64,000 nucleotides of DNA, taken from Verrucomicrobiota bacterium. Lineage in GTDB: Bacteria > Verrucomicrobiota > Verrucomicrobiia > Limisphaerales > UBA9464. The stretch is from assembly GCA_017309115.1 (NCBI GenBank), contig JAFLEF010000011.1, positions 85,281 to 149,280 of the forward strand, written 5' to 3'. The position numbers were made by a program, and so were the translations under genes. Under the pieces are notes generated by a model that was not told the origin of the DNA, searched no databases, and worked only from the letters and a program-made list of their open reading frames with translations. This document shows, one piece after another, positions 42,217 to 58,669 of this stretch (positions are counted from its first letter, which is position 1; every line of letters begins with the position of its first letter).

Positions 42217-44373
42217 GTGCAATTCCTCGTCCTGTTTCTGTTGTTCCTGGTCCTGGTCGCCGCCGGTGTCCTCTCGGTCTTCTGCGTCCGGAAGATTCCG
42301 CCGGGACGCGCTGGGGTCACCACCGGTTGGGGCGGCCTAAAGGTCTCCTTCGACTGGATGCTCCGCCTGCCGATCGTCCAGAATTACCACATTGTCGATA
42401 TCTCGGTGAAAAAGCTCGAGATCCAGCGCAAGGGTAAGGACGGGTTGGTCTGCAAAGACAACATCCGCGCGGACATCGTGGTGGCCTTCTACATTCGGGT
42501 GGAGGCAACCGAGGAAAGCGTCCGCAAGGTCGCCCAAATGCTCGGACCCGAGCGGGTCTCCGATCAGGAACAGCTGAGAGAGCTGTTCGAAGCCAAATTT
42601 TCCGAGGCGCTCAAGACGGCCGGTAAGCAAATGGAGTTCCACGAACTCTTCACGGAACGCATCAAGTTCCGGGACCAGATTCAGGGCACCATCGGCAAAG
42701 ACCTCGACGGGTTCCTTCTGCAAGACGTGGCGATCGACTACCTCGAACAGACACCGCTGGATCAACACGACCCCAACAACGTTCTGGATGCCGAGGGTAT
42801 CAAAAAGATCACAGAGATCACCCAGCGAGAACGGGTCAGCGCCAATGAATTTTCGCAGCGGGCTTCGGTGCAAATGGAGAAGGAGAACGCCGACGCCGAT
42901 ATCGCCAAGCGCGAACAGAAGCGGCGGAACGAAGAGGATACGGCCAAGCAATCCCGCGCCATTACCGAAGTGAAGGCCAATGAGGAAGCCGAGGCCCGCA
43001 AGGTGATCGAGATGCGCCGTCAGGAGGTTGAGGCCAAACGCTTGGAAGCGGAGGAGGCCATCCGATTGCGGACGGAGGACATGAACCGCGCCGTTCAGGA
43101 GCGGGAGTTCACGGTCAAGAAAGAGAAGGAGCGGCTCGAGCAGGAAGCCACTCAAGAGGGCGAAGAAGCCCGGGTTCGGCGCGAGCGAACGGTCTCGCTC
43201 GCCGAGATGGACAAGGAAGTGAAGGTTGCCGAAGCCGCTGTGGAAGTGGAGCGGCGGCGGGCCGTGGTGGTGGCGGAGCAAAAGGCGGTCGTTCAACAGT
43301 CCGAGGAAAAGCTCAACATCGAGGCCCGCATGACGGCGGAACGGGTCAAGGAAGTGACCTTGATCGAGGCCGAAATGAACGCGAAGAAGGATCAGGTGGT
43401 GAAGGTGGTCGCTTCTGAGGCGCAGAAGGATTCCGAACGCAATCTGGCCGAGGCTGACAAGATCCGATTGGTCATGGCTGCGGAGGCCTCTCGTGAGGTT
43501 GCTCTGCGCGAAGCCGAGCGGATTCAGACACTGGCGGACGCGGAGTCCAAAGCGTCCGAGAAGCGTCGCCACGCTTCAGAACAGGATGCCGAAGGTCTCG
43601 CGGCCAAGGAAGCTGCGCGGGGCTTGGGCGAAGCCAAGGTCATCACGGCCAAGGCCAATGCCCGCAAGGCCGACGCCGCCGCGCTGCGGGAGATCGGTTT
43701 GGCCGAAGCGCAGGTTACCAAAGCGAAGGGCGATGTGCAGGCGGAAGTAACCCAAAGCCAGGCGGAGGCCGAAGCCGAGGGCACCAAGGATCGCGAGATG
43801 GCCCTCGCTACAGGAATCGAAGCCAAGGGACTCGCCGAAGCCAAGGCGATTGAGGAGAAGGCGAAGGCCATGAAACTCCTGCACGAAGCCGGTCAGCAAC
43901 ACGAGGAGTTCCGGCTGCGATTGGCCAAGGAACGCGATGTCGAACTCGCCTCCATTCAGGTCGAGAGGGACATCGCCCAAGCTCATTCCCAAGTGGTGAG
44001 CGAAGCTTTGCGCTCGGCGAAGATCGATATCGTCGGCGGCGAGAATGACTTCTTCGAGAAGGTTGTCCGGGCGGTCGGGACCGGGAAATCGGTGGACCGC
44101 GTGGTGCAAAACAGCCGCACGCTCACGGACATCAAGGAAACCTTCTTCAATGGAGATCCGGAACGGTTCAAATCTCAGATGCGCCAATGGATCGCCGACT
44201 TCGGAGTAAAGTCCGAGGATTTGAAGAATCTGACGGTGGCCGCCCTGCTGACCCGCCTGTTGGCGCAAAACACAGACGGAGGGATGAAATCACTCCTGCA
44301 GGCGGCCTTGGGCGCCGCGCGGGAGCGGGGTCTGGCCGAGGCTCCGGCGACGTCCGTCCTCTCGCCGTCTTGA
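42217..44373 (+). CDS. Flotillin-like SPFH/Band-7 membrane protein
   Basis: 718 residues from GTG 42217. An N-terminal transmembrane helix (FLVLFLLFLVLVAAGVLSVF, residues 3-22) is followed by an SPFH/Band-7 domain (~25-200; ADIVVAFYIRVEATEESVRK, the LREFFEAK-like segment EAKFSEALKTAGKQMEF). A ~350-residue Glu/Ala/Lys/Arg-rich coiled coil follows (~205-600), then a C-terminal region (600-718; SEALRSAKIDIVGGENDFFE, QNSRTLTDIKETFFNGDPE). This is the architecture of YqiK/flotillin scaffolds, which organise membrane domains and oligomerise as rings or cages. The ATPase gene begins 48 bases later, implying a shared transcript and probably a complex. The ~200 bases before it hold no recognised feature. 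Confidence 0.88.
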   Translation: MQFLVLFLLFLVLVAAGVLSVFCVRKIPPGRAGVTTGWGGLKVSFDWMLRLPIVQNYHIVDISVKKLEIQRKGKDGLVCKDNIRADIVVAFYIRVEATEESVRKVAQMLGPERVSDQEQLRELFEAKFSEALKTAGKQMEFHELFTERIKFRDQIQGTIGKDLDGFLLQDVAIDYLEQTPLDQHDPNNVLDAEGIKKITEITQRERVSANEFSQRASVQMEKENADADIAKREQKRRNEEDTAKQSRAITEVKANEEAEARKVIEMRRQEVEAKRLEAEEAIRLRTEDMNRAVQEREFTVKKEKERLEQEATQEGEEARVRRERTVSLAEMDKEVKVAEAAVEVERRRAVVVAEQKAVVQQSEEKLNIEARMTAERVKEVTLIEAEMNAKKDQVVKVVASEAQKDSERNLAEADKIRLVMAAEASREVALREAERIQTLADAESKASEKRRHASEQDAEGLAAKEAARGLGEAKVITAKANARKADAAALREIGLAEAQVTKAKGDVQAEVTQSQAEAEAEGTKDREMALATGIEAKGLAEAKAIEEKAKAMKLLHEAGQQHEEFRLRLAKERDVELASIQVERDIAQAHSQVVSEALRSAKIDIVGGENDFFEKVVRAVGTGKSVDRVVQNSRTLTDIKETFFNGDPERFKSQMRQWIADFGVKSEDLKNLTVAALLTRLLAQNTDGGMKSLLQAALGAARERGLAEAPATSVLSPS

Positions 44374-44421
44374 ATCTGATCGGGTCCGGGAGGGTTCGTC
44401 TTCGACGAGCCCTCCCGCTCC

Positions 44422-47400
44422 GTGCCCCTTCCTGAAATGGCTGAATCCGCCCCTGCCGTCCCGACTTCGGGTGCCGCCGCCTCCCCGGCATTGCCGGTCG
44501 GTGGGGCAGTTCCCCAAGCCTTGGGCAACGCTACCTACGAAATCATCCGGCAACGGCTCCGCAAGCAGGCTGACTCCCTACGCGAGCGAATGAGTCTGTT
44601 GGATGCCCGTCGGCAGGAAGTCTTCGGCAAGGTGGAGTTCAAGATCCTCCAAGCCGACCGGATCACCACCGCCCACAACTGCATCCCCCGCGACATGGTT
44701 CAGTTGGGCCGGGGCCGATTCCTCTTCGGCTTCAATGTTCATTTCGGGCTCAAGAAGGAAATGGAACTGGGGGACGTCTTTGCGGTTTATCATCGCGACG
44801 ACGCCACCGGCGGTTTTAAGGAAGTGGGGCTGGAACCGCTGCAGGATCGCCAGTTTCTCACCGACTTCAAACGGCTCTACAACGTCTATCAGAAGGCGTC
44901 TTTCGCGAAATTCTCCCTGCTCGGTAACACGCTGTTCATGGTGTTCCAGATTGGCGCGGGACCCGGTGACATCTCGGTTTTCAAGTGGGAGTTCAATGGT
45001 GGTCAATTGCGCTTCCTCGACGGACGGAGCGAAAGCGAATATCGCCGCATCGCGTTCCCCCCGCAGTTTGAGTTCCGTTGGCAGACTCCGGATCGCGAGT
45101 CGTTTCGGTATGGCGATCATCCCCACGTCTCCATCGAAGATCGCGTCTTTGTGGAGTGCATCGGCGGGGATCTGACCGTCAAGGTGGAGGACAATACGGC
45201 GACGGGTGAGGGCCTGTATTCCGAGCCGGTGGACGACAAATTTCAGAAGGTCGACGACGCCGAGATTGCCTACGCCTCCATTGACCATCTGATCCTGCTG
45301 AAGATTCGTCCCTACAAGGAGACGGTCGCCCGCTACTTCATCTACAACGAGAAGCAGCAATCCATCGTTCGAGTTGATTCGCTGGGCCAATCATGCGCCC
45401 TGTTGCCCCAGGATCACGGGCTGATTTTTCCGTCGGGATACTACCTGGCGACAGGCGGGTTGAAGGAGTTCGAAACCCGCGCGCAGAACCTCACGCTGGA
45501 GCGGGTCATTCATGCGCCCAATGGCGAGGACTCGCTTTTTGTATTCTACGAGGCAGCCACCGGTGACTACGTGCTCATGCCGTATCGTCTGATTGCCCAA
45601 CGCGTGGAGGAACGGATCACCTGTCACGGGTTTTCCCTGTTCGCGGATGGTCACCTCCTTCTGTTCCGGGCCGAAGCCGAAGCGCAGAAACATCACCAAG
45701 TTCAGCTTCGGCAGACGCCCTTCCATCAGGCGGGCTTTGAGCCACCCGGACAGCCCGACGCGTTCCTTTACCGCGTGGGAAACAAGGAAGTCGTTCGTTG
45801 CCTCGCGGAGATCAACGAAGTGCTGACCTTGGTGGAACGGGACAATCCGTACGCGGAGTTGTACGTGGATCTGGTCAAGCGCTGCGGTGCGATGCTGGAC
45901 ACCTATCCGTGGTTGAAGAGCGATGACGGGTTTCAGTTGGACTCCGCACTCCACGAAGTGCAGGCCGCCGCCGATCAGGCCGTCGATGAGTTTGACAAGG
46001 TTCGCCGGTTGCAGCGCGAAGCCGTGCAGCGGGTGGCGGATGTTCGCAAACGCACCGAGGAACGCTTCAACCTCATTCGGCGGGCGAGTTTTCGGGTGCT
46101 CGACGACTACGTGCAGAGTCTGACGGCACTGCGCCAGTTGCGGGGCGAGCTAATCACCCTCAAGGAGGTTCGCTACGTCGACGGGGCGCAAATCGCGACC
46201 CTGGAACAGTCGGTCGCGGTGCAGTCCGATGAATTGTCGCGCAACTGCGTGAAATTCCTGGTCCAGCCTTCTTCGCTGGATCCCCAGCGAAAACTCGCGC
46301 AGGAACAGCTCGCCGCGGTGGACAAGGTCACCAAGGTGGCGGAAGGGCGGAAGATTGAGAAGGCGGTGGCGGAGGCGGGCGCTGGACTGGAACTGCTGAT
46401 TGAAATCGTCAACAGCCTTAAGATCGAGGATGCGACCGAGGCGACGAGGATCATTGACGGCATCACTGCGATCTACTCCACGCTGAACCAGGTCAAAGCC
46501 GCCTTACGCAATCGGCTTCAGTCCCTGAGTGCGGCGGAAGGCACGGCCCAGTTCAACTCGCAGATGAAGCTGCTGGGCCAATCGGCGGCGAGTTATCTGG
46601 ATCTGTGCACCACCCCAGCCAAGTGCGACGAGTACTTGAACCGTCTTACGGTCCAGCTGGAGGAGATGGAGGGGGCGTTTGCCGACTTTGAGGAGTTTGC
46701 CGTTCAGCTCGCAGAGAAGCGCACTTCGCTGTACGAGGCGTTTGAGCAGCGCAAGATCAGCTTGGTGGAACAGCGCAACCGCCGGGCGGCGGCGCAGATG
46801 GCGGCGGCGGAGCGCATCCTGAAGGTCATTCAGAACCGGCTGGCGGGTTTCAAGACCATCGAGGAGATCAACTCCTACATGGCGGCCGACCTGATGATCG
46901 GCAAGGTGCGCGAGACGATTGCCCAGCTGCTGGAGGTCGAAGATTCCGTCAAAGCGGACGACTTGCAGGGTCGGCTGAAGGGCTTGCACCAGGAGGCTGT
47001 TCGGCAGCTCAAGGATCGCCAGGAGTTGTTCCAGGGCGGAGACCGGGTCATCAAACTCGGGAAGCATCGGTTCAACATCAACACCCAGCCGTTGGATCTG
47101 ACGGTGGTTCAGCGGGACGGTCGCCAGTTCGTGCATCTAACCAGCACGAAGTACTTCGACGAGATCACCGAGGAAGCTCTGCTGGCGACGCGCGCCGTGT
47201 GGGACCTGGAAGTGGTGTCGGAGACGCGGGAAGTCTACCGGGCGGAGTATCTGGCCTTTCGGATGTTGGAACAGGGCGAGGCCGGCGGACTGATGCTGGC
47301 AGGAAAACGTCTGACTCTGGCGGACGTGGCCGCCTTGGGAGAACCGGAACGACTGGCGCTGATTGAAGAGTTCATGGCGGCGCGGTACCAGGATGGCTAT

Positions 47401-49992
47401 GCCAAGGGTATCCATGATTTCGATGGAGCCCGGATTGTTCACACCCTGCTGACGACTCATCTGGCCCTTGGTCGAGCTCGGTTCTCGCCCGAGGCGCGGG
47501 CGTGTGCCGTGGTGTTCTGGCATCGGTTCCTCGCGGCTGACACCCGTGAGCTCTGGTCGAAAAAGCTCAAGGGCTTTGCCGAACGGAACCGGATTTTTCC
47601 GGGTGACCCGGTCCAGCCCGACTATCTGCGGGCGCTGACGGACTTCTTTGGGCAGTTGGCGCGCGATACGGGTTTGTTTCCCGCCAGTCTGGCACCGCTT
47701 GCCGGTGAATATTTGTTTCACGAGGTCACCTCGGGGGAGACGTTTGTGATCAGTCAGGAGGCGTCCCGTTTAACAGCGGCGTTTGAGCATCACCTGGTGG
47801 GCAAAGGCCGGGAAGAGCTCTTCGCCAACGCCCGAAAATCGTTGGCGGGTCATCCCGGCAGCGAATTGGAATTGGTCCGGGATTGGGTTCGGGGATTCTG
47901 GCTCGAACGATCCGAGCCAACGCGGTTTTTGGAAGAAGTGGTGGCGCTGGTCTATTGCGGGGGAGACTTCAGCCGGACCGTGTCCACCGCGGAGTCAGCA
48001 AGTCGTTTGGAGGGGCTGAGAGGCAATCACAGTCTCGTTCAGGGCGGCGTCTACACATTCGATTACTTCTCCTTTCAAGACCGGTTGCGCCGGCATGTTC
48101 GGGAGACGGTGCCGCAGTTTGAGAGCTACCAACGAACTAAGCAGCAGATTCTCGAAGGCGAACGAAAGAAGCTGAGGCTCGATGAGTTTCGGCCCCGGGT
48201 GTTGTCCTCCTTTGTCCGGAACCAACTGGTGGATCAGATTTACCTGCCGTTGGTGGGCGACAATCTAGCAAAGCAGCTCGGAGCGGCGGGTGATCAGAAG
48301 CGCACCGATCTGATGGGGTTGTTGCTACTCATTTCGCCGCCAGGCTATGGCAAGACCACGCTTCTTGAGTATCTCGCAGCCCGCTTGGGAATCGTGTTCG
48401 TAAAGGTCAACGGACCCGCGCTGGGGCATCAGGTGACGTCTCTGGATCCCGAGGAGGCTCCCAATGCCGCCGCTCGCGAGGAGGTCGAGAAGCTGAACCT
48501 CGCGTTGGAGATGGGTGACAACGTCATGCTCTGCGTGGATGACATCCAGCATTGCTCGCCGGAGTTCCTGCAGAAGTTCATCTCGCTCTGCGACGCCCAG
48601 CGCAAGATCGAGGGCGTTTGGCGGGGCCGTTCGCGAACCTACGATTTGCGGGGACGCAAGGTGGTGGTGGTGATGGCCGGCAATCCCTACACCGAAAGCG
48701 GTCAGAAATTCAAAATCCCGGACATGTTGGCCAACCGCGCCGACACCTACAATCTGGGCGACATCATTGGCGGCAGCGCGGAGTACTTTAAGGCCAGCTA
48801 CCTGGAGAATGCTGTCACCTCCAACGCCGCTCTGGCTCCGCTGGCCAACCGCAGCCAGAAGGATGTCCAAGCGTTCATTCGTATGGCGACCCTGGGCCAA
48901 CGGGATGGCGGAACCTTCGAAGGCAGCTATTCGTCGCAGGAAGTGGCGGAGGTGTTGTCGGTGCTGACGAAGCTGGTCGCAGTTCGGGAGATCGTGTTGA
49001 AGGTGAATCTCGAATACATCCACTCGGCGGCTCAGGCGGATGAGTTTCGCACGGAACCACCGTTCCGATTGCAGGGCTCCTACCGCAATATGAACCGGCT
49101 TGCGGAAAAGGTGGTTCCGGTCATGAACGATCAGGAGGTGGCGGATCTCGTGATGGACCACTACCGGGGCGAATCCCAAACGCTCACCACCGGAGCAGAG
49201 GCGAATCTACTGAAGTTCAAGGAACTCGTCGGGCGTCTGTCCCCGGACGAGGCAGCCCGCTGGGAGGAGATCAAGCGAACCTTCCGCCGAAATCAGTTGG
49301 TCCGCGGCGGGGATCAGAACGATCCGGTGAGTCGCGTCGTAGCCCAGTTGTCGGGCTTCCAAGCGGGCTTGGAATCGATTCAGCAGACTTTGGCGGCCCA
49401 GTTGGCTCGGCCCTCCACACCGGCGGTGGACCTCGCGCCGTTGGGGCAGGGTCTCGAGGCGATTCAGGCGGCCCTGACGCGACTGGGGTCCGGATCGTTC
49501 ACGTCTCCGGCCGTCTCGGTGGACCTTGCGCCGGTGACTCAGGTGCTTGAGTCAATGCGGGGTGCGCTGGTGGAACGCGGGAACCGGACGGAACCCTCCC
49601 ATCCCAAGGAAGGGCCGGTATCCGAAGTGGCCACCCGACTCTCCGAGGGATTCCAACAGCTGCGCGAGGATCTGAGTCGGGCCATTACCGCCGTGCATTC
49701 CGGCACAATGGCGGATCGGGTGACTAGTGTGATGCACGAACTGGAAATGATTCACAGCACGCTGGCGACCTTGAAGGACATCGCCTCCCGACAGCGGGAT
49801 CATGTGCGGAATGTGGAACAATTGCTGACGGCCCGGGCCAAAGCGGGCACGGTGGAGATCGAGTTGACCCAGGAGATGCTCGTGAATGAACGAGCCTTCC
49901 TCGACCGCTTCCACCAAGCACTCTCGGCGGTGGAGCCGGCCGCGCCACCGACCATACCTCCGCCCACGCCCGCTCCTAAACCTCCTCAGTAA
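44422..49992 (+). CDS. Giant coiled-coil AAA+ ATPase ('DNA repair ATPase' family)
   Basis: 1,856 residues from GTG 44422 (ATG 44437 is an alternative). In order: a short Ala/Pro-rich start; a ~500-residue N-terminal region of mixed beta/alpha character (RITTAHNCIPRDMVQLGRGR, FLFGFNVHFGLKKEMELGDV); helical coiled-coil segments to about 1000; a further mixed region to ~1250; and an AAA+ module with Walker A SPPGYGKTT (Lys1311), Walker B MLCVDDIQ (Asp1373-Asp1374), a sensor-1-like AGNPYTESGQ and a MLANRADTYNLGD segment. The C-terminal ~250 residues are repeat-like helices ending in a Pro-rich tail. Databases call homologues (notably in Streptomyces) 'DNA repair ATPase'; I recall no direct biochemical proof. 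It sits between an SPFH protein and a small coiled-coil protein. Confidence 0.85.
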   Translation: MPLPEMAESAPAVPTSGAAASPALPVGGAVPQALGNATYEIIRQRLRKQADSLRERMSLLDARRQEVFGKVEFKILQADRITTAHNCIPRDMVQLGRGRFLFGFNVHFGLKKEMELGDVFAVYHRDDATGGFKEVGLEPLQDRQFLTDFKRLYNVYQKASFAKFSLLGNTLFMVFQIGAGPGDISVFKWEFNGGQLRFLDGRSESEYRRIAFPPQFEFRWQTPDRESFRYGDHPHVSIEDRVFVECIGGDLTVKVEDNTATGEGLYSEPVDDKFQKVDDAEIAYASIDHLILLKIRPYKETVARYFIYNEKQQSIVRVDSLGQSCALLPQDHGLIFPSGYYLATGGLKEFETRAQNLTLERVIHAPNGEDSLFVFYEAATGDYVLMPYRLIAQRVEERITCHGFSLFADGHLLLFRAEAEAQKHHQVQLRQTPFHQAGFEPPGQPDAFLYRVGNKEVVRCLAEINEVLTLVERDNPYAELYVDLVKRCGAMLDTYPWLKSDDGFQLDSALHEVQAAADQAVDEFDKVRRLQREAVQRVADVRKRTEERFNLIRRASFRVLDDYVQSLTALRQLRGELITLKEVRYVDGAQIATLEQSVAVQSDELSRNCVKFLVQPSSLDPQRKLAQEQLAAVDKVTKVAEGRKIEKAVAEAGAGLELLIEIVNSLKIEDATEATRIIDGITAIYSTLNQVKAALRNRLQSLSAAEGTAQFNSQMKLLGQSAASYLDLCTTPAKCDEYLNRLTVQLEEMEGAFADFEEFAVQLAEKRTSLYEAFEQRKISLVEQRNRRAAAQMAAAERILKVIQNRLAGFKTIEEINSYMAADLMIGKVRETIAQLLEVEDSVKADDLQGRLKGLHQEAVRQLKDRQELFQGGDRVIKLGKHRFNINTQPLDLTVVQRDGRQFVHLTSTKYFDEITEEALLATRAVWDLEVVSETREVYRAEYLAFRMLEQGEAGGLMLAGKRLTLADVAALGEPERLALIEEFMAARYQDGYAKGIHDFDGARIVHTLLTTHLALGRARFSPEARACAVVFWHRFLAADTRELWSKKLKGFAERNRIFPGDPVQPDYLRALTDFFGQLARDTGLFPASLAPLAGEYLFHEVTSGETFVISQEASRLTAAFEHHLVGKGREELFANARKSLAGHPGSELELVRDWVRGFWLERSEPTRFLEEVVALVYCGGDFSRTVSTAESASRLEGLRGNHSLVQGGVYTFDYFSFQDRLRRHVRETVPQFESYQRTKQQILEGERKKLRLDEFRPRVLSSFVRNQLVDQIYLPLVGDNLAKQLGAAGDQKRTDLMGLLLLISPPGYGKTTLLEYLAARLGIVFVKVNGPALGHQVTSLDPEEAPNAAAREEVEKLNLALEMGDNVMLCVDDIQHCSPEFLQKFISLCDAQRKIEGVWRGRSRTYDLRGRKVVVVMAGNPYTESGQKFKIPDMLANRADTYNLGDIIGGSAEYFKASYLENAVTSNAALAPLANRSQKDVQAFIRMATLGQRDGGTFEGSYSSQEVAEVLSVLTKLVAVREIVLKVNLEYIHSAAQADEFRTEPPFRLQGSYRNMNRLAEKVVPVMNDQEVADLVMDHYRGESQTLTTGAEANLLKFKELVGRLSPDEAARWEEIKRTFRRNQLVRGGDQNDPVSRVVAQLSGFQAGLESIQQTLAAQLARPSTPAVDLAPLGQGLEAIQAALTRLGSGSFTSPAVSVDLAPVTQVLESMRGALVERGNRTEPSHPKEGPVSEVATRLSEGFQQLREDLSRAITAVHSGTMADRVTSVMHELEMIHSTLATLKDIASRQRDHVRNVEQLLTARAKAGTVEIELTQEMLVNERAFLDRFHQALSAVEPAAPPTIPPPTPAPKPPQ

Positions 49993-50017
49993 CTAAAACT
50001 TTACCCTCGGAACTCCC

Positions 50018-50809
50018 ATGAAAGAAATGATCGATCGCATCCAAAATCTGGGTCGCAAGGCGGCCGAGTTGAAGCACGCGGTCGCCAGCGCTCCCGGGCA
50101 TGTCGCCGACCTCCGCCAATCAGTGGCTCTCACCGCCGGGCAATTGCAGCAGTTGCGCACGGATGTGCAGGTTAACGTGGCGGGGTTGCGAGCGACCGAC
50201 GGAGCCAAGGTCGTCGGGGTGCTGAAGGAGTTGGTCGGCGAGACGGCGGCCATTCGGGCAGCCGGTTATGTTTTGGGCGGGGTTGAATTGGAGGTGGATC
50301 CCGTTTCGCGGGTGTTTCTGCTGCTCGACAAGGTGGAGGACGTTTCCGGGCCGCAATTGCAGGCGCTGCTGGCAGCGCAAGCGACGCATCCGGCGGTGCA
50401 TGGACTGATTACGGCCCTGGTTCAGGCAGAAGAGTTGTCGGATGGACTGGTGTTGCCGGGCCTGAGCTATCAGCGAGTCCGGGTGGAAGTTGGTCCGGTG
50501 CCAACCTTGCGGTTGTGCTGGCAGGCGACCGGTTCCGCGTCTCCACCGAGCGCGATGGCGGCAACGGCAGCCACCTCGAAGTCGATGTCCGCCTCTAGTT
50601 CCACGTCGCCGGCCCTTCCCTCCATGTTTGGCGAAGGCTCGTTCTTCGAGCGTCGGCCGGCCGTCGTGTCCACTCCGGCGTCGGTGCGGGCAGCTCCGGA
50701 TTGCCCGGCACCTGCACCATCGCCTGCCGTAACGCCGGTGGAGACATCCCGAGCGAGTGCGTTGGATCGATTCAAGAAGATGCCGGATCTGGGTCGGCGT
50801 ACGCCCTGA
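50018..50809 (+). CDS. Small coiled-coil partner protein of the SPFH-ATPase module
   Basis: 263 residues, no named family recognised. Residues 1-~60 are helical and heptad-like (MIDRIQNLGRKAAELKHAVA, SVALTAGQLQQLRTDVQVNV). Residues ~60-170 look globular (VGVLKELVGETAAIRAAGYV, ELEVDPVSRVFLLLDKVED, LPGLSYQRVRVEVGPVPTLR). Residues ~175-245 are low-complexity Ser/Ala/Pro, and the end ALDRFKKMPDLGRRTP is short and basic. It begins 25 bases after the ATPase stop, so it is the third gene of the module. A role as adaptor between ATPase and SPFH protein is a guess. Confidence 0.7.
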   Translation: MKEMIDRIQNLGRKAAELKHAVASAPGHVADLRQSVALTAGQLQQLRTDVQVNVAGLRATDGAKVVGVLKELVGETAAIRAAGYVLGGVELEVDPVSRVFLLLDKVEDVSGPQLQALLAAQATHPAVHGLITALVQAEELSDGLVLPGLSYQRVRVEVGPVPTLRLCWQATGSASPPSAMAATAATSKSMSASSSTSPALPSMFGEGSFFERRPAVVSTPASVRAAPDCPAPAPSPAVTPVETSRASALDRFKKMPDLGRRTP

Positions 50810-50890: not shown

Positions 50891-51571
50891 ATGGAGGAAG
50901 TCCCGTTGCCTTTTGGGCCCGGTTCGGGCAGGGGAATTGGTGTGGAAACTCCCCTGATTCGATCTGCCGTGGAGGCCGACCTATCCGATTTGGGCTCCAG
51001 CTTGTGCCGCGCGTTTATTGAGGATCCCATGATGCAGTTCATCTTTGGGGAACTCGCACACAGGCCGGAGGCGCTGGAATGGTTCATGACGGCTGGAGCG
51101 CGGTATGGCTTGCTCTGGGGTCGGGTGCTGACGACCGCGGCGCCCGCTCGGGGTGCTTCAGTCTGGTTGGCTCCGGGCGAGGGGGAAATGATTCCGGAAC
51201 GGTTGGCGGCGGCGGGCTTCGATCAGGCACCGGAACGGATGGGAATGGAGTCGTTCGAGCGGTTCATGGCGGTGATGGAGCATTTCCAAGGATTGCATGG
51301 TCGAATCGCCCCCGAGCCGCACTGGTACCTGATGATTCTGGGGGTGGATCCGGAATGTCAGCGGCAGGGTCTGGGGGGATTGCTTCTGGAACCGGTGTTG
51401 CGTGAGGCGCGGGAGGCCGGCCTCGCCGTATATCTGGAGACTTCCCGGGAAGAGAATGTTGCGTTCTATGAGCGCCACGGGTTTCGAATGGAGGAAGCTT
51501 CGGTGACGCCCGGAGGCCTCCGGGTTTGGGCGATGCTCCGACCGCCGCATCTCCCGGTCGGTGCCGTTTGA
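50891..51571 (+). CDS. GNAT-family N-acetyltransferase
   Basis: 226 residues. GNAT fold with the acetyl-CoA loop LGVDPECQRQGLGGLLLEPV (Q-R-Q-G-L-G) and a C-terminal FYERHGFRMEEA motif. The N-terminal ~90 residues contain IRSAVEADLSDLGSSLCRAF, as in the GCN5-like family with two-part substrate pockets. Substrate unknown. It lies 81 bases after the SPFH-ATPase module on the same strand and could be part of it, but the gap allows a separate promoter. Confidence 0.85.
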   Translation: MEEVPLPFGPGSGRGIGVETPLIRSAVEADLSDLGSSLCRAFIEDPMMQFIFGELAHRPEALEWFMTAGARYGLLWGRVLTTAAPARGASVWLAPGEGEMIPERLAAAGFDQAPERMGMESFERFMAVMEHFQGLHGRIAPEPHWYLMILGVDPECQRQGLGGLLLEPVLREAREAGLAVYLETSREENVAFYERHGFRMEEASVTPGGLRVWAMLRPPHLPVGAV

Positions 51572-51624
51572 ATCCCGTGCGTACGTCCCCTTGCGGCGGT
51601 CCTGAATGTCCGCTCCCTTTCGTC

Positions 51625-53376
51625 GTGTTGCGCCGTTTGCTCTCCGCGTTGGTGGTCCTCGCCAGTTCGTTTCTGGCGGGCGCGGCGGAATTGCGAGGGC
51701 TCTGGGTCGATGCGTTCAATCCCGGATTCAAGTCGGCGGCGGAGATCACGCAATTGGTGCGAGATGCCCGGGCGGGTGGCTTTAACGCGGTGTTCGTGCA
51801 GGTGCGGAGGCGGGGCGATGCCTTTTATGAGTCCTCCCTCGAACCCCGCGCTAGCGAGCTACCCGTCGGATTCGATCCCCTGGCGGAATTGCTGCGTCAG
51901 GCCCACGAAACCTCAGCAGGCCAGCGGCGTCTGGAAGTTCACGCCTGGATTGTGGCGTTCAACATCTGGAATCGGGAGAACACCCTGCCGCCGCAGACGA
52001 ATCATCCGTACCGGCTGCATCCGGACTGGCTGACCCAAAACAATACCGGCAATCGCTGGGACGGTGCCAACTACGCCTTTGATCCAGGCCATCCGGAGGT
52101 TCAAGACCACACCCTGGCGGTCGTGGCGGATTTGGTTAGCCGCTACGAACTCGATGGACTGCACCTCGACTACATTCGTTACGCCGGAATCGAGTGGGGG
52201 TTCAATCCCATCAGTGTGGCCCGTTTTCAACGGATCTACGGTCGGACGATTCGGCCGGCGCCGGGAGATTTCGCGTGGCTGCAGTTCCGGCGCGACCAGG
52301 TGACTGGTATCGTTCGGCGGATTTATCTGACCGCGACCGAACTCCGACCCGCGCTCAAGGTGTCCGCCGCCACCATCACCTTTGCTCCGGGGATCAGCGA
52401 GACCTCTGCCTGGACCACGTCGGCGGCGTACACCAGCGTGCTGCAGGATTGGCGGGCGTGGATGGAGGAGGGGATTCTCGATCTAAACGTGCCCATGGCC
52501 TACTTCCGGCAATCGCAGTGGGCGAGTGCTTGGACGAAATGGAGCCAGTTCGCCAAGGACCATCGGTATGGTCGCCACTTGGCTTTGGGGGCGGGCGTGT
52601 ATCTGAATCCGCTAGAGAGCAGCTTGGAGCAATTGCGGTCCACCCGACTGCCGACTGCCCGATCGGAAGGAGCGGAAGGTCAGGTCCTATACTCTTACTA
52701 CGCGCCCACGAGTGACGGAATGTCCCGACCGGCGTTTCTCGCCGCGTTGACAACGGGATTGGCCGGCGATCTTCAGCCCCCGCTGTATGGAGAGACGGCC
52801 GAACCGCCGTCGATGCCTTGGAAGGAATTCCCCGAACGCGGCCACTTCCTGGGGCGGGCTCTGGATTTTCAAGGGTTGCCGTTGGACGGTCTCCGGATTC
52901 GCATGACCGGTCCGAAGTCCCGCACGCTTTTGGTGGACGCCAACGGCTGGTTCGGCGGCGTCGAACTGGATCCTGGAGAATACTTCCTCGCCGCCACCAA
53001 TGCGGCGATCCGGTATCTCGGCGCAGTGGTGGTTGGACCCGGACAAGTGCAGCGTCCGGTCTTGTGGCCGGCGGAAGCCGATACCGATCTCGACGGAATC
53101 TCCAACGAATGGGAACTGATCTGGGAAACCGATCCCGCCGATCCGGAGTCGGTCCCGCAAGTCCAGGGCCACGCCGCGGCCAATGGCACGCTCACGCTGA
53201 GTTGGCTGCCAGTCTCCTCCCGGCGGAGCTATCGGGTGGAGGTGCTGAGTGAGCTTGATTCTGAAGACTGGCAAGCGCTGCCGGTCACGATCCCATCAGG
53301 AATGGGAGAGCTCACCGGAATACCGCTGGAAGGTTCCGCCCGCTATTTCCGGGTGCAACCGCGGGTGCAGCCCTGA
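51625..53376 (+). CDS. Secreted glycoside-hydrolase-like (GHL10/DUF187) protein
   Basis: 583 residues from GTG 51625, chosen because it gives a Sec signal (RRLLSALVVLASSFLAGAAE). An upstream ATG (51526) inside the GNAT gene was rejected. Residues ~20-360 form a (beta/alpha)8 barrel of the GHL10/DUF187 type: LRGLWVDAFNPGFKSAAEIT, GFNAVFVQVRRRGDAFYESS, the putative active-site LDGLHLDYIRYAG, and VPMAYFRQS. A short beta domain follows, then a calcium-binding thrombospondin-3-like ADTDLDGISNEWELIWETDP, and finally the same C-terminal module as the proteins at 14897 and 32296 (LSWLPVSSRRSYRVEVLSEL then WQALP and ARYFRVQ). Likely degrades or remodels polysaccharide outside the cell. Confidence 0.82.
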   Translation: MLRRLLSALVVLASSFLAGAAELRGLWVDAFNPGFKSAAEITQLVRDARAGGFNAVFVQVRRRGDAFYESSLEPRASELPVGFDPLAELLRQAHETSAGQRRLEVHAWIVAFNIWNRENTLPPQTNHPYRLHPDWLTQNNTGNRWDGANYAFDPGHPEVQDHTLAVVADLVSRYELDGLHLDYIRYAGIEWGFNPISVARFQRIYGRTIRPAPGDFAWLQFRRDQVTGIVRRIYLTATELRPALKVSAATITFAPGISETSAWTTSAAYTSVLQDWRAWMEEGILDLNVPMAYFRQSQWASAWTKWSQFAKDHRYGRHLALGAGVYLNPLESSLEQLRSTRLPTARSEGAEGQVLYSYYAPTSDGMSRPAFLAALTTGLAGDLQPPLYGETAEPPSMPWKEFPERGHFLGRALDFQGLPLDGLRIRMTGPKSRTLLVDANGWFGGVELDPGEYFLAATNAAIRYLGAVVVGPGQVQRPVLWPAEADTDLDGISNEWELIWETDPADPESVPQVQGHAAANGTLTLSWLPVSSRRSYRVEVLSELDSEDWQALPVTIPSGMGELTGIPLEGSARYFRVQPRVQP

Positions 53377-54463: not shown

Positions 54464-54648
54464 GCTTCAAGCGAGAGGGTGAAGTGGCCCCGGTTCGGGA
54501 GTCGCTGGATCGTTCGGCTGGTACACTCCTTCCGACTCGATGGGGTGACTTTTCTGTCCAGCGGGAGAAACCTGTTGTTGCGGGCGAATCCCTCAGCATA
54601 GGCTCGCCTATCGAGACGATCAGCGCGTCTCACCTAACCCAAGCTGCC

Positions 54649-57468
54649 GTGGTAACGCTCTACTCTAAGCCTATACCCATATCCATAAACAGCTTCCGTG
54701 CAAATGTTTATAGAAGACTGTGGCTGGGAATCGTGGGTTTGGCGTTCACCTTTTTTTCCCTTCAAGCGCAGTGGTTGAGCCAATCATTTACGCTGAAACC
54801 AGGTTGGAACGCGGTGTTCACGCACGTCGATGCTTCGTATCGATCGCTGGATTCCCTGATCCCTGACGCCAACGGTCCGGTGGCGGAGATTTGGCTGTGG
54901 AAGCCCTCGTTCTCCACGATTCAATTTGTCGAAAGCCCCTACACCAATGCGGTGGCGGATAGTCAGTGGGCGGTGTGGACGAGCGCTCGGGGGGATACTG
55001 ATACGCTGACGACCCTGGTGGGAAACGGAGCCTATCTCGTCAACAATCGGACCGGAAGCGACTACGTGTGGACCGTCAAAGGAAAGCCGGTGCCGCCCAC
55101 GTATCAGTGGACCACGACCGGGCTGAACTTCCTGGGGTTTCCCACGCCTTCGAGTCTGGCGCCTTCATTTACCGCGTTCCTGAATCCCGCACCCGGTCTG
55201 GATTTGGCCAAGACGTTGGAGAACGACGCGCACGTTTTTCGTTACGTGGGCGGAAGCCTCGGATCGACGAATCCCGTTGAGGTGGTTTCGTTCAACGCGT
55301 CCAGCACGTTGGTGAACCGGGGTCAGGCATTTTGGGTGCGAGGAAGCAGTGACTACTACAATCGCTATTACGGGCCGGTCGAGATCTCGCTCCAAAACCC
55401 GGCTGGACTCCAATTTCGCGAAACGTTGGGGACCTACAGCATTCGGTTGCGGAATCTCACCACTGTGAGTCGCACGATTCGGTTTGGGTTGCTGGCCTCC
55501 GAATCTCCCCCGGACGGCCAATCCGCCATAGCAGGAGTTCCTCAGTTGCTGGTCCGCGGAAACCTCAGCACAACCACGCTGACCTATGATTACGCAGTAC
55601 TGACGAACCAGCAGTTCACTTTGACGCCTCAGGGTCAGACGGGCTCTGAACTTCAAGTCGTGTTGGGTCTGAATCGGACGGTCATGACGGCGGCGGCGGG
55701 ATCGGTGTATGCGGGCACCCTTCGCATTACGGATTCCACGGGTCTGCAGCAGTACGACGTCCCGGTTTCAGCGTCGGTGCCGAATACTTCGGGCCTCTGG
55801 GTGGGGCAGGCCAGCGTTGATCAGGTCGGGCAGTACCTGAAGTCGTATCCGAAGGTGGACACGTCCCAGGCGGATCAAGCCAGCCAGATCAATGCGGCTG
55901 CGGCGGCCGCGGGGCGCCCGCCGAGCGGTGTGGAAATGCCCGGTGCCGTGTGGACCGCCCGGGAAACCAGCGTTTCGCGGGCGTATTCTTCCGTGGCGTC
56001 GTCCCTGGATGGTCGGGTGCTGGTGGCGGCCCACAATGGAGGGACGCTGTATGTCTCGCAGAATTCCGGGACCAACTGGACAGCGCGCGATTCAAATCGG
56101 AGTTGGGCAGATGTGGCCGTTTCCGCCGATGGCAGTGTGATGGCGGCCACGGTCTTCAATGGGGCGATCTATCTTTCCACGAACTCAGGCACTAACTGGA
56201 CAGCCAGCAGCAGTGGCTCCGCGGCCTGGGTCGGGTTGGCTCTGTCGGCCGATGGGAACCAAGTCGCCGCGGTCGCGCAGAACGGTCCGCTTTACACCTC
56301 CTCCAATCGAGGAACGTCGTTCCTCGTTCGCTCCGCTGCGGGCACGCGCAATTGGAGCGGCATTGCTTTGTCTGCCGACGGATCCCGGATAGTTGCCTCC
56401 GTCAATCCGGGTCAGATCTATACGAGTTCCGACGCGGGCGTGACGTGGCGGACCAACGCCTTTTCCGCCAACTGGAGTGCGATTGCCTCCTCGGTGGATG
56501 GAACCAACCTGGTGGCGGCGGTGAATGGCGGCTTGGTCTATACGTCCCCGGATGCCGGAGTGACCTGGGTGGCTCGGGGAGCGACCAATCGATGGAGTTC
56601 CGTGGCGACGTCCACCGACGGCCGACGACTTGCGGCGACGTCCACCAGCAGTCAGATCTACACTTCGGATGACGCCGGGTTGACCTGGGCCGCGCGGGAA
56701 TCGAGCCGCAACTGGGATGAGATCGCCACTTCGGGCGATGCCACCCGTCTCGTGGCAGTTGTTAACGGGGGCTTCATCTACACACTCAGCCGTTCCTTCG
56801 CCAGTTACGCGGTGGATGAAACCTCGGGTTTGGTGACGGACCAGAACGGACTCTACCTCTCTTCCGGCGTAAACACCAATATGGCGCGGGTGAGCCGCGT
56901 CTTTCCGCTCCGGCTCGTGCTGCACAATCAGTCTTCGGCCAGTCAGGTCAGCCTGTTGCAGAGAGTGTTTGTTGGGCCGGGGCGGTCGGGGACGAACACG
57001 GTCGTGGCCACTCAGGAAGGTTTGCTGGATGCCAATCAACTCGCGTCGGCCCGACGAATCACCGCGACCCATCTGCCCTTCTCGCATACCAACGCCTTCT
57101 GGCGAACCGGCGGAACCTTCGGTTCGGGGAGTGTCCTGATTTTTACGGTGGGCGAGAGCTACAAGGATCAGGTGAGCAATCCCTTCCTGCACACCTTTCA
57201 TCCCGACCACGACAATCTCGACGTCAACTTCAAGACCGTGCAGCCGCGGGGAGTCGAGTCCTACGATCTCACTCGCACGATCCGCTTGACGTTCACCACT
57301 CCGGGCACGGACTTCGATTCGCTGACGGCCTCCGCCCAAAGCCGGACTGGAGTTTATGAAGAGACCATGACCGTGGGTGCCCAGGGTGGAGCGAGTCGTG
57401 ATTTTCGTCTGAGCGGCAGTTTCAATCTTCAGCTCATCAGTCCCGTGGCCACCTTAACCACCCAGTGA
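54649..57468 (+). CDS. Exported seven-repeat beta-propeller protein
   Basis: About 939 residues if started at GTG 54649; the start is uncertain because no ATG precedes the signal, and the frame opens at 54484. A Sec signal (RRLWLGIVGLAFTFFSLQAQ) is clear. Residues ~40-440 (SFTLKPGWNAVFTHVDASYR, VWTVKGKPVPPTYQWTTTGL) are a large beta-rich region without a name I know. Residues ~445-717 hold seven ~39-41-residue repeats of the type NWSxIAxSxDGxxLVAxVNGGxIYTSxDAGxTW, a BNR/sialidase-like seven-bladed propeller. The C-terminal part (LVLHNQSSASQVSLLQRVFV, YDLTRTIRLTFTTPG) resembles other verrucomicrobial surface proteins. First of three exported genes in a row. Confidence 0.72.
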   Translation: MVTLYSKPIPISINSFRANVYRRLWLGIVGLAFTFFSLQAQWLSQSFTLKPGWNAVFTHVDASYRSLDSLIPDANGPVAEIWLWKPSFSTIQFVESPYTNAVADSQWAVWTSARGDTDTLTTLVGNGAYLVNNRTGSDYVWTVKGKPVPPTYQWTTTGLNFLGFPTPSSLAPSFTAFLNPAPGLDLAKTLENDAHVFRYVGGSLGSTNPVEVVSFNASSTLVNRGQAFWVRGSSDYYNRYYGPVEISLQNPAGLQFRETLGTYSIRLRNLTTVSRTIRFGLLASESPPDGQSAIAGVPQLLVRGNLSTTTLTYDYAVLTNQQFTLTPQGQTGSELQVVLGLNRTVMTAAAGSVYAGTLRITDSTGLQQYDVPVSASVPNTSGLWVGQASVDQVGQYLKSYPKVDTSQADQASQINAAAAAAGRPPSGVEMPGAVWTARETSVSRAYSSVASSLDGRVLVAAHNGGTLYVSQNSGTNWTARDSNRSWADVAVSADGSVMAATVFNGAIYLSTNSGTNWTASSSGSAAWVGLALSADGNQVAAVAQNGPLYTSSNRGTSFLVRSAAGTRNWSGIALSADGSRIVASVNPGQIYTSSDAGVTWRTNAFSANWSAIASSVDGTNLVAAVNGGLVYTSPDAGVTWVARGATNRWSSVATSTDGRRLAATSTSSQIYTSDDAGLTWAARESSRNWDEIATSGDATRLVAVVNGGFIYTLSRSFASYAVDETSGLVTDQNGLYLSSGVNTNMARVSRVFPLRLVLHNQSSASQVSLLQRVFVGPGRSGTNTVVATQEGLLDANQLASARRITATHLPFSHTNAFWRTGGTFGSGSVLIFTVGESYKDQVSNPFLHTFHPDHDNLDVNFKTVQPRGVESYDLTRTIRLTFTTPGTDFDSLTASAQSRTGVYEETMTVGAQGGASRDFRLSGSFNLQLISPVATLTTQ
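55981..56799 (+). repeat. Sevenfold coding repeat (propeller blades)
   Basis: Seven in-frame units of ~117-123 bases encode ATSxDGxxLxA...IYTSxDAGxTW-type blades. At protein level, starts are near AYSSVASSLDG, SWADVAVSADG, AWVGLALSADG, NWSGIALSADG, NWSAIASSVDG, RWSSVATSTDG and NWDEIATSGDA. DNA identity between units is only moderate, so this is an old internal duplication rather than a recent tandem expansion. Confidence 0.75.
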
Positions 57469-57514: not shown

Positions 57515-58669
57515 ATGAATCGAAGTTCATTCTTCTCCCTCGGCGTACTATGCGCCGCGCTGTTGATGTCGGCGAGCCTGGTGCAGGCCCAAAGCAACGC
57601 CAAGCCGCCCACGCAGATGACCTATCAGGGCTTTCTGACCGACGGCAATGGCCTGCCTTTTGGCAGCAGTACTCCGGTCAACAAGACGGTCATTTTCCGT
57701 ATCTACGATGCCCTGACGGGAGGAACGCTTAAATGGAGTTCCCAGCAGGTGGTGACCGTGGACAAGGGCTATTTCAGCGTCTTGTTGGGCCAGGGCAGCA
57801 GTGTGGGCAGTGAGCCGTTTAGTGCGGACTTAACCAGTGTTTTCACGGGTGCTGGCGCGTCGGATCGCTACCTGGAACTGAATGCGGATGGGGTCACTAT
57901 TGCGCCGCGGCTGCGGTTCCTGCCCGCCCCTTCGGCCATGCTGGCGAAGAGTGCAACGGAACTCCTGGACCCAGTGACCGGAGCCAGCTCCCTGTCCGTC
58001 GCCGGGGGAAACATTTCCATCGGTGGCACTCTCACCGCCGCCAATGCCACCATCACGGGGACCGTCACCACGGGCCAAGTTGCGGCCAATGGAAACATCA
58101 ACTCGCAGGGAAACATCAACGCTAACGGCACCGTCACGGGGACCAGTTTCACCGGATACGGAACGATCCCACTGGGAGGCATCATCATGTGGTCGGGATC
58201 GGTCAGTGCGGTGCCGGCCGGATGGGCCTTGTGTGATGGGCGCACCGCCAATTCCCGAACGACTCCGGACCTCCGCGGACGATTCATTGTGGGAGCGGGA
58301 GCAGGAGCGGTGGGATTGACTAGCCGGGACGTGAATGCCACCGGCGGCAATGAGCAGATCACTCTGACGGTGGGACAACTCCCCGCCCACACCCATCAGG
58401 TTCAGGGGAACACGGCTTCGGCCGGGGCCCACAACCATACCGTGGACAAGGCGCCGCTGGATGACCGGAATTTTTCGGACTTAAACGGTTCCCAAACGTT
58501 GGGTGTGGTGGGCGATGCGAGTGGAACCGGGAATCGCAGCATGAACACCAGTAGCGCGGGCGATCACACGCATTCGTTTAACGTGACTTCCGCCAGCGCG
58601 GGCAATGGGAACCTCATCGGCATCATGCCCCCATTTTACGCTTTGGCCTTCATCATGCGGGTGCAGTGA
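57515..58669 (+). CDS. Exported phage-tail-collar-domain protein
   Basis: 384 residues with a Sec signal (FFSLGVLCAALLMSASLVQA, cleaved before QSNAK). The N-terminal third is beta-rich (PPTQMTYQGFLTDGNGLPFG, FRIYDALTGGTLKWSS), followed by a Gly/Thr/Asn-rich collagen-like or beta-helical spacer (NGNINSQGNINANGTVTGTS). The C-terminal ~170 residues are a tail collar domain: IPLGGIIMWSGSVSAVPAGW, ALCDGRTANSRTTPDLRGRF, LPAHTHQVQ and the end IMPPFYALAFIMRVQ (microcystin-dependent-protein style). No phage genes surround it, and the signal peptide argues for a surface appendage or adhesin. Second of three exported genes. Confidence 0.82.
   Translation: MNRSSFFSLGVLCAALLMSASLVQAQSNAKPPTQMTYQGFLTDGNGLPFGSSTPVNKTVIFRIYDALTGGTLKWSSQQVVTVDKGYFSVLLGQGSSVGSEPFSADLTSVFTGAGASDRYLELNADGVTIAPRLRFLPAPSAMLAKSATELLDPVTGASSLSVAGGNISIGGTLTAANATITGTVTTGQVAANGNINSQGNINANGTVTGTSFTGYGTIPLGGIIMWSGSVSAVPAGWALCDGRTANSRTTPDLRGRFIVGAGAGAVGLTSRDVNATGGNEQITLTVGQLPAHTHQVQGNTASAGAHNHTVDKAPLDDRNFSDLNGSQTLGVVGDASGTGNRSMNTSSAGDHTHSFNVTSASAGNGNLIGIMPPFYALAFIMRVQ

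Follow-up and report, generated by a model that had tools for sequence, protein, structure and literature searches.

A stretch of 64,000 nucleotides from a Verrucomicrobiota bacterium (the window) carries three genes, encoding an SPFH/flotillin-type protein, a giant AAA+ ATPase and a small soluble protein, which are inherited as a unit. Relative to other such loci, the clade of the window locus (the window clade) has no NfeD/YqiJ-like gene at this position; in addition, it has acquired the small protein, and its ATPase a coiled coil at the C-terminus. We put roughly even odds (about 0.5) on the reading that the module is an NfeD-less flotillin/band-7 and DUF3686-AAA+ operon, specifying a flotillin-scaffolded remodelling machine for envelope stress with the small protein in place of NfeD. 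The three genes are intact and lie on one strand with intergenic gaps of 48 and 25 bases; on recheck, the coordinates, strand, lengths (718, 1856 and 263 aa) and gaps given in an earlier note on this DNA all proved exact. Promoter and terminator scans gave no signal above shuffled sequences. Its features are:

42217..44373, + strand: SPFH/flotillin-type membrane scaffold protein, 718 aa (ORF reading; homologue L018 matches Pfam Band_7)
42217..42288, + strand: N-terminal hydrophobic segment, predicted single membrane anchor, residues about 1-24 (sequence by eye)
44422..49992, + strand: giant AAA+ ATPase, 1856 aa (ORF reading, Pfam, alignment)
44578..45906, + strand: DUF3686 domain of the ATPase, residues 53-495 (Pfam PF12458, E 7.3e-163)
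46273..46521, + strand: DUF7902, middle region of the ATPase, residues 618-700 (Pfam PF25472, E 6e-22)
48334..48360, + strand: Walker A SPPGYGKTT, residues 1305-1313 (K1311 in 56/56 aligned ATPases)
48526..48543, + strand: Walker B, residues 1369-1374 (D1373 and D1374, both in 56/56 aligned ATPases)
49735..49929, + strand: clade-specific C-terminal coiled coil of the ATPase, HELEMIHSTLATLKD..., residues 1772-1836 (motif alignment)
50018..50809, + strand: putative small soluble partner protein, 263 aa (ORF reading; recurrence in window-clade loci)
50018..50197, + strand: N-terminal helix of the small protein, weakly PspA-like, residues 1-60 (Pfam PF04012, E 0.0015, below cut-off)
50636..50650, + strand: GSFFE motif in the low-complexity linker of the small protein, residues 207-211 (alignment by eye)
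50756..50791, + strand: C-terminal peptide SALDRFKKMPDL of the small protein, residues 247-258 (homologue alignment)

A Pfam scan of the first protein gave no match, even at E 1. It is called SPFH because of its homology (429.5 bits) to the relative L018, which matches Band_7 (E 5.7e-6, residues 32-174); together with the N-terminal hydrophobic segment and a coiled coil, both recognised by eye, this homology assigns it to the flotillin family at the level of sequence. N-terminal hydrophobicity is, by eye, retained in most SPFH homologues, and a PDB search with the protein gave no meaningful match. The coiled-coil richness of the module's products was likewise judged by inspection of the sequences. 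Unusual constraint on the SPFH coiled coil (201-400) of the window clade was not supported by comparison with type-B pairs (0.84-0.87 versus 0.77-0.81); in the same comparison, ATPase core identity was 0.70 versus 0.63.

The AAA_5/AAA match of the ATPase lies at residues about 1299-1427. Lys1311 of Walker A and Asp1373/1374 of Walker B had been placed correctly, and N1421 of the sensor-1 block is invariant along with them in the 56 aligned ATPases. The C-terminal coiled-coil motif aligns in 12 of the 13 window-clade ATPases, the thirteenth (L086) being cut before it, and in 0 of 43 others. The corresponding ATPase has been described as having beta-propeller repeats and coiled coil (PMC11237479); a profile self-comparison found no repeats, and a PDB search with DUF3686 found no meaningful match. 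DUF3686 ATPases occur in Verrucomicrobiota, Bacteroidota, Deinococcota, Actinomycetota, Pseudomonadota and one Clostridiaceae MAG. A literature search for DUF3686 by name returned no paper, and therefore no biochemical or genetic test of a DUF3686-type protein was found. Pfam and record names make the protein a DNA repair ATPase, a label that the earlier note had considered unsupported, rightly so, since the only domain-level trace of it is a RuvB-like P-loop match. That similarity is weak, confined to the P-loop and below cut-off; a PDB profile search likewise returned short P-loop matches only, to many AAA+ proteins, the Pfam and NCBIfam scans revealed no nuclease, helicase or DNA-binding domain, and the partner is a membrane protein. 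A repair function, with which copies on two Deinococcus plasmids would agree, is thus highly improbable. It could also draw on a Shewanella SPFH (COG2268) knock-out that raised mutation, although the available text of that study (PMC1468410) attributes the rise to iron leakage and does not describe the operon there as containing a DUF3686 ATPase.

Co-occurrence across 59 related genomes and 61 ATPase neighbourhoods upholds the proposal that the three genes form one unit. The ATPase is found in 12 of the 59 genomes and strong SPFH matches in exactly those 12, in a search that scored the best 19 candidates per genome, where weak or distant SPFH or small-protein relatives could escape; one further search, scoring the best 6 per genome, carries the same risk. 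All ten genomes with a window-type ATPase have the small gene and none of the 49 others does (nominal chance 1.6e-11 if the genomes were independent, which they are not); in G012 it is still present, on a different contig. Counted by locus, 12 of the 13 window-clade loci with enough downstream sequence have it, as against 0 of 46 other loci. The neighbourhoods, on which the earlier note had let its proposal depend, place an SPFH gene within the fetched stretch at 53 of 61 ATPase loci, so the ATPase is not mostly without this neighbour. At four of the other eight (L011, L013, L049, L073), the contig extends no more than about 2.2 kb upstream, and four (L077, L078, L080, L081) have no SPFH neighbour despite at least 4 kb. 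Five of six type-B genomes without a local SPFH gene carry one elsewhere; in G249 none was found anywhere in the genome. Loci from other phyla were sampled from named contigs and plasmid records, 8 of 12 plasmid matches being fetched. Furthermore, trees built for 49 loci from SPFH and from the ATPase are congruent (r 0.82, reached by 0 of 1000 label permutations), partly owing to shared species history, and each separates the window clade with support 1.0.

Outside the module, genes vary between window-clade loci, and no further gene family recurs beside it among the neighbours, which were clustered and in part annotated. This recurrence pattern bears on the alternative that the module gates proteolysis in the manner of HflKC-FtsH or scaffolds some other client system (e.g. 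transport), the AAA+ protein being a regulator and the small protein a clade accessory unrelated to the loss of NfeD. HflKC-FtsH is, in the text available on it, a known SPFH-AAA+ pairing and thus a precedent; against it, no additional family accompanies the window-clade module and Pfam detects no protease domain in the ATPase. We regard this alternative as unlikely.

The small ORF is a real gene, as established by its homologues and dN/dS. Eleven further homologues were found, one cut by a contig end, and dN/dS is 0.15-0.69 in 31 of 36 pairs, a rough estimate with synonymous sites near saturation in all pairs (the other five pairs are saturated; 9/12 sequences). Among 11 full-length homologues, LxRFK[KR]MPxL is present in all, giving a near-invariant RFKKMPDL-type ending, and [GS][ST]FF[DEN], counted by eye, in seven. 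That the RFKKMPDL tail is a tag shared by many proteins was rejected: exact FKKMPDL occurs once per genome, only in the small gene, in 9 of 10 genomes, the exception being G011, whose copy reads MPKL. A PDB search with the small protein gave no meaningful match. Origin from CesT/Tir or YjfI was not supported either (no similarity in hhalign, a weak test with single-sequence targets), and hhalign detected no similarity to an NfeD-like profile that would indicate an NfeD-like OB domain.

The earlier note had presented the module as a candidate undescribed system. This does not hold for the SPFH and giant AAA+ pair, which has already been published: comparative genomics in 2024 described flotillin/band-7 paired with large AAA+ proteins in operons that also encode a membrane protein of the YqiJ/NfeD type and, in many cases, CesT/Tir-PspA (PMC11237479, section 19), and presented these operons as phage-shock-linked (Ravi et al. 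2024, PMC11237479). What appears to be undescribed in the literature searched is the third, small gene and the missing NfeD-like gene of the window clade. An NfeD-like gene lies immediately upstream in 39 of 40 other SPFH and ATPase loci (39 of 46 of all other loci) and in none of the 15 window-clade loci, 12 of which have at least 1.2 kb upstream of SPFH. In the window genome, the one genome searched throughout for NfeD and YqiJ, YqiJ_N has no match and the only NfeD match adjoins a FloA gene on a different contig; this NfeD therefore has another partner. The exchange of NfeD for the small protein represents a single evolutionary event within one clade and may be coincidental.

PspA is present in related operons: the gene order is CesT-PspA-DUF1449-SPFH-ATPase in Hymenobacter (L023) and YjfI-PspA-...-SPFH-ATPase on pQBR103. 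True PspA is found in 0 of 10 window-clade genomes, and the phage-shock link consequently does not carry over directly to this clade. A loss specific to the window clade was not supported, PspA being rare in the order (5 of 59 genomes over the cut-off, 8 at E 1e-3).

ESCRT-III proteins have a tail motif that is read by an ATPase. By analogy, the small protein could be a derived PspA/ESCRT-III-like filament former, disassembled by the AAA+ protein on a flotillin platform, with the conserved C-terminal peptide, which comes after a linker, serving as the tail motif. PspA_IM30 is indeed its commonest Pfam match, seen at E up to 10 in 8 of 10 small proteins with 6e-4 as the best value; the PspA model, searched against genomes, matches the small gene of G018 (E 2e-4); and hhalign of the N-terminus against PspA gives a probability of 39.8%, compared with at most 7.5% for six control profiles, or 17.6% compared with 8.1% once the central domain is included. 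However, every score is below accepted cut-offs and covers about 50 residues of heptad-like helix, and other coiled-coil families match as well (Filament in 3 of 10, apolipoprotein at E 0.003, MscS_porin at E 0.004). By eye, strands alternate with helices in the middle of the small protein, a pattern that differs from a long helical hairpin. An ESCRT-like origin therefore seems improbable.

Phage defence, one of the roles considered in the earlier note, is not favoured by the data, and no systematic defence association was seen. Under this explanation the scaffold would sense infection and the AAA+ motor would act on phage components or the membrane. Its patchy spread in close relatives (12 of 59) would suit such a system, and Jet (Wadjet) B, C and D genes lie downstream of the module at one of 14 window-clade neighbourhoods scanned (L014), with scattered defence matches near type-B loci. 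Yet of the 52 proteins flanking type-A loci, the Jet proteins and a single RtcR-like protein are the only ones to match at 1e-8, PADLOC returns for the three proteins a best E of 3e-4, over the P-loop, and no match was found in 50,697 phage records. Moreover, it is PSP and NfeD genes that act as partners in other phyla. Defence is accordingly a distinctly unlikely role.

For the preferred reading, an envelope-stress remodelling machine, we infer the following mechanism. Like flotillins that have been studied, the SPFH protein, held by its one N-terminal anchor, would oligomerise on the cytoplasmic side of the membrane to form a cage or clamp of coiled coils. The ATPase may sit on this scaffold, docking through its putative propeller and its coiled coil, with the C-terminal AAA+ domain as motor, and would consume ATP in pulling apart, extracting or reassembling proteins near the membrane that were misfolded under stress. 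The small soluble protein would fill the role of NfeD as complex partner: its helix and central domain may bind a coiled coil, either that of SPFH or the one newly added to the ATPase C-terminus, and the RFKKMPDL peptide, displayed on its low-complexity tail, may serve for docking or regulation. Physiologically, the module would help the cell to withstand envelope stress rather than serve in DNA repair or in defence against phage. A more specific version is tentative: that the clade exchanged the NfeD membrane partner, which this flotillin otherwise has almost universally, for a soluble adaptor that docks by its tail peptide on the new ATPase coiled coil. The result would be a flotillin machine complete in itself and driven by ATP, able to extract damaged membrane proteins or to refold them. 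If true, this partner swap would provide an ATP-dependent counterpart to the ATP-independent flotillin-NfeD clamp that stabilises proteins. The window clade represents a natural experiment, in which the NfeD-like gene is gone and a soluble protein gained, and the swap bears on which surfaces connect scaffold, motor and adaptor. More broadly, it is the widespread DUF3686 ATPases, with a flotillin-type scaffold gene adjoining at most loci, that bear the unsupported DNA-repair label.

Among known systems, the published flotillin/AAA+/YqiJ operon (PMC11237479) shares with the module the SPFH and AAA+ pair, and the Hymenobacter locus reproduces its full version with a DUF3686 ATPase; the window clade differs in having no YqiJ/NfeD-like or nearby PspA gene and in adding the small gene and the ATPase C-terminal coiled coil. 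A link to PspA/Vipp1 (ESCRT-III family) phage-shock systems is that 13 of the 44 type-B stretches contain PspA, whereas the window genome has no PspA gene. HflKC-FtsH likewise joins an SPFH scaffold to an AAA+ enzyme, but here a protease domain was not found and the motor is a separate giant protein. Flotillin-NfeD pairs (FloA-NfeD; SPFH2-NfeD2) have in common with the module an N-terminal anchor, an SPFH domain and a long coiled coil; in Staphylococcus aureus, according to the available text of PMC11222466, NfeD binds the flotillin tentacles, and together the two stabilise unfolded proteins in an ATP-independent manner. The window locus, by contrast, has no NfeD, and its genome keeps a separate FloA-NfeD pair.

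The SPFH (flotillin/band-7-type) protein, the giant AAA+ ATPase and the small protein are encoded on the same strand with gaps of 48 and 25 bases, exactly as the earlier note had placed them:

42217-44373, + strand, open reading frame, SPFH protein (718 aa)
44422-49992, + strand, open reading frame, ATPase (1856 aa)
50018-50809, + strand, open reading frame, small protein (263 aa)
ATPase residues 53-495, DUF3686 (Pfam, E 7e-163)
ATPase residues 618-700, DUF7902 (Pfam)
ATPase residues ~1299-1427, AAA+ core (Pfam)
ATPase Walker A, SPPGYGKTT, with K1311 inside the motif
ATPase Walker B, with D1373-D1374 at its end

The Walker A lysine and Walker B aspartates, correctly assigned in the earlier note, are identical in 56/56 aligned ATPase homologues, as is N1421 of the sensor-1 block. 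The SPFH protein itself gave no direct match in a Pfam search; a relative from locus L018 matches Band_7 (E 5.7e-6).

We collected 61 distinct ATPase loci, 15 from within the clade of the window (type A) and 46 from outside it (type B), from 45 genomes (own included), eight named contigs and 8 of 12 plasmid-collection hits, with two duplicates removed. The ATPase is found in 12 out of 59 related genomes and in 34 out of 387 genomes sampling the phylum. An SPFH gene of the family lies within the fetched stretch in 13/15 type-A and 40/46 type-B loci, so that the view of the three genes as one module stands, and an ATPase mostly devoid of SPFH neighbours is not what we observe. Among the eight loci without a local SPFH gene, four (L011, L013, L049, L073) have at most ~2.2 kb upstream, and four (L077, L078, L080, L081) have at least 4 kb. 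Six genomes with such type-B loci were searched; the gene was located elsewhere in five (G187, G144, G342, G421, G073) and not found in G249. With at most 19 candidates per genome scored, strong SPFH matches occur in the same 12/59 relatives as the ATPase (the G004 copy being a contig-end fragment), and the weak matches in G044 and G049 (E 2e-4 and 4e-4) cover only ~65–80 residues of coiled coil. The small gene directly follows the ATPase in 12 of the 13 type-A loci with room; in the exception, L012, it lies on a separate contig of the same genome (G012), indicating that it is kept even without adjacency. Among the relatives, it is present in 10/59, exactly the genomes with a type-A ATPase, and in 0/49 others; in the phylum sample, with at most six candidates per genome scored, it appears in the own genome alone, unless one counts a borderline hit in G200 (E 9e-4, residues at positions 140–239). 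Across 49 loci, the SPFH tree correlates with the ATPase tree (r 0.82; 0/1000 permutations, a test within which shared species history remains), and both set the 11 type-A members apart with support of 1.0. Genes flanking the module vary within the clade. Given this co-occurrence, the matching trees and the varying flanks, the module is real and patchy in distribution, and its genes seem to come and go together.

Several loci depart from the usual arrangement. The ATPase of L017 (4349-10005; MAG G003, 70% complete) is divided among three ORFs, which may reflect an assembly error or a decayed copy. In some type-B loci, a Schlafen/AlbA_2-type gene (L050:11651-13201) or small proteins of one cluster (L056, L059, L060, L064; the L062 member is PDDEXK_3) are encoded between SPFH and ATPase. 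Directly upstream of the SPFH-less ATPases of L080 (11721-12557) and L081 (11723-12559) is a Kdo/WaaP-kinase-like gene (E 7e-7 and 2e-6), possibly a different partner.

The two types differ in the third component. In 39/40 type-B loci with SPFH, the gene immediately before it codes for a protein of ~220 aa (sole exception, L090; weak match in L027, 7e-11). A profile of this NfeD-like protein, built from 31 of these loci, found no counterpart in any of the 15 type-A loci; in 12 of these, the sequence extends 1.2 kb or more upstream of SPFH. The L066 protein matches Pfam YqiJ_N (2e-4) and NfeD (2e-3), both under Pfam cut-offs, and the Hymenobacter one is annotated as DUF1449. Genome-wide, the own genome yielded no YqiJ_N match with a model that did find E. 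coli among the controls, and its single NfeD gene adjoins a FloA gene (Pfam E 2e-140); this separate pair (C59 ~29962-30120) constitutes a second flotillin system. Since the closest type-B relatives in the tree, L082 and L083 of the same order, carry the NfeD-like gene but no small gene, the change from NfeD to small protein would most simply be a single event on the stem leading to the window's clade.

The small protein is under purifying selection: dN/dS is 0.15 to 0.69 in 31/36 pairs from nine sequences, rough values because synonymous sites are near saturation, with the other five pairs saturated. An alignment of 12 homologues (11 full-length) displays an N-terminal helix (residues 1–60), a central region (62–170) of strands alternating with helices, as judged by eye, a Pro/Ala/Ser-rich linker with [GS][ST]FF[DEN] in 7/11, and a C-terminal peptide, LxRFK[KR]MPxL, in 11/11 full-length homologues. 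The DNA pattern for FKKMPDL has exactly one site in 9/10 type-A genomes, always within the small gene; G011 reads MPKL instead of MPDL. Type-A ATPases likewise have a specific end, a conserved coiled coil (HELEMIHSTLATLKD..., residues ~1772–1836) present in 12/13 aligned sequences (the 13th is cut before it) and 0/43 of type B; identity to the window ATPase in block 1751–1800 is 0.53 within type A and 0.04 in type B.

Type-B loci are also linked to phage-shock operons. PspA genes accompany 13/44 type-B stretches and 0/15 type-A ones (jackhmmer, one PspA seed), as in Hymenobacter sp. DG25B (CesT/Tir-PspA-DUF1449-SPFH-ATPase; CesT_Tir_1 E 6e-53) and plasmid pQBR103 (YjfI-PspA-rhomboid-DUF2491-DUF350-DUF1190-glutathionylspermidine synthase family-(NfeD-like)-SPFH-ATPase). 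According to PMC10936438, the SPFH protein YdjI is required for PspA placement at the membrane. Genome-wide, a threshold of E 1e-3 detects PspA in 24/35 type-B genomes, 20 of them over the cut-off, and in 0/10 type-A genomes, where the lone match (G018) is the small gene itself. The N-terminal helix of the small protein weakly resembles PspA, a signal that coiled-coil composition could produce. It is doubtful that the module works as a PspA-like ESCRT analogue. As PspA exceeds the cut-off in merely 5/59 relatives, its absence from type A is the local norm.

Phage defence is quite unlikely: the best PADLOC match of the module proteins is no better than E 3e-4, and the ATPase occurs in 0/50,697 phage records. 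Of the 52 proteins that flank 14 type-A loci, none matched at 1e-8 apart from Jet (Wadjet) proteins and a single RtcR-like one; 73 proteins flanking type-B loci matched 122 models, of which none among the 25 listed matched more than two proteins. Downstream of the small gene, L014:11390-16495 encodes JetD (E 8e-65), JetC (2e-128) and JetB (2e-12), and one unmatched gene lies between these and the small gene. Beyond the module, the window itself encodes a GHL10 glycosyl-hydrolase-like protein (51526-53376, E 5e-38) and a 994-aa sortilin/beta-propeller-repeat-like protein (54484-57468) adjoining a bacterial protein of 384 aa that matches the Phage Tail Collar domain (57515-58669, E 2e-6).

We consider it about an even chance (roughly 0.5) that the module is an ATP-driven remodelling machine. 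A flotillin scaffold, presumably a cage, would sit on the membrane; the giant AAA+ motor would dock on it; the small adaptor would take the place of NfeD; and ATP would drive remodelling of stressed membrane-proximal proteins. The scaffold might instead gate proteolysis or serve another role, which we regard as unlikely. DNA repair, the name attached to the ATPase, is very improbable. Among the open-licence PMC papers listed by searches on its DNA-repair name and on SPFH/AAA/PspA combinations, none deals with the function of the DUF3686 ATPase, and PMC13086221 and PMC10948618 offered nothing further on it; DUF3686 by name likewise returned none.

Related systems have been described. In S. aureus, NfeD binds the flotillin tentacles, and together they keep unfolded proteins stable with no need for ATP (PMC11222466). 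SPFH2-NfeD operons are shown in PMC2636767, where 'ATPase' is unmentioned, and knock-out of a Shewanella SPFH (COG2268)-DUF1449 pair alters iron metabolism and raises mutation (PMC1468410). PMC11237479 describes phage-shock-linked operons that combine a flotillin/band-7 protein, a large AAA+ ATPase and a YqiJ/NfeD-like membrane protein, often along with CesT/Tir and PspA, and for these it proposes a chaperone-like, ESCRT-analogous membrane assembly from comparative genomics; because its main text does not use the name DUF3686, the identity of the published ATPase with ours rests on the matching operon of locus L023 (Hymenobacter). The earlier note was right about a single unit and too generous in putting it forward as a candidate for an undescribed system, this kind of operon being already in print. 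The module is a new variant of a described pair, itself supported in print by comparative genomics, and what is distinct about this locus is the exchange of the NfeD-like gene for the small gene.
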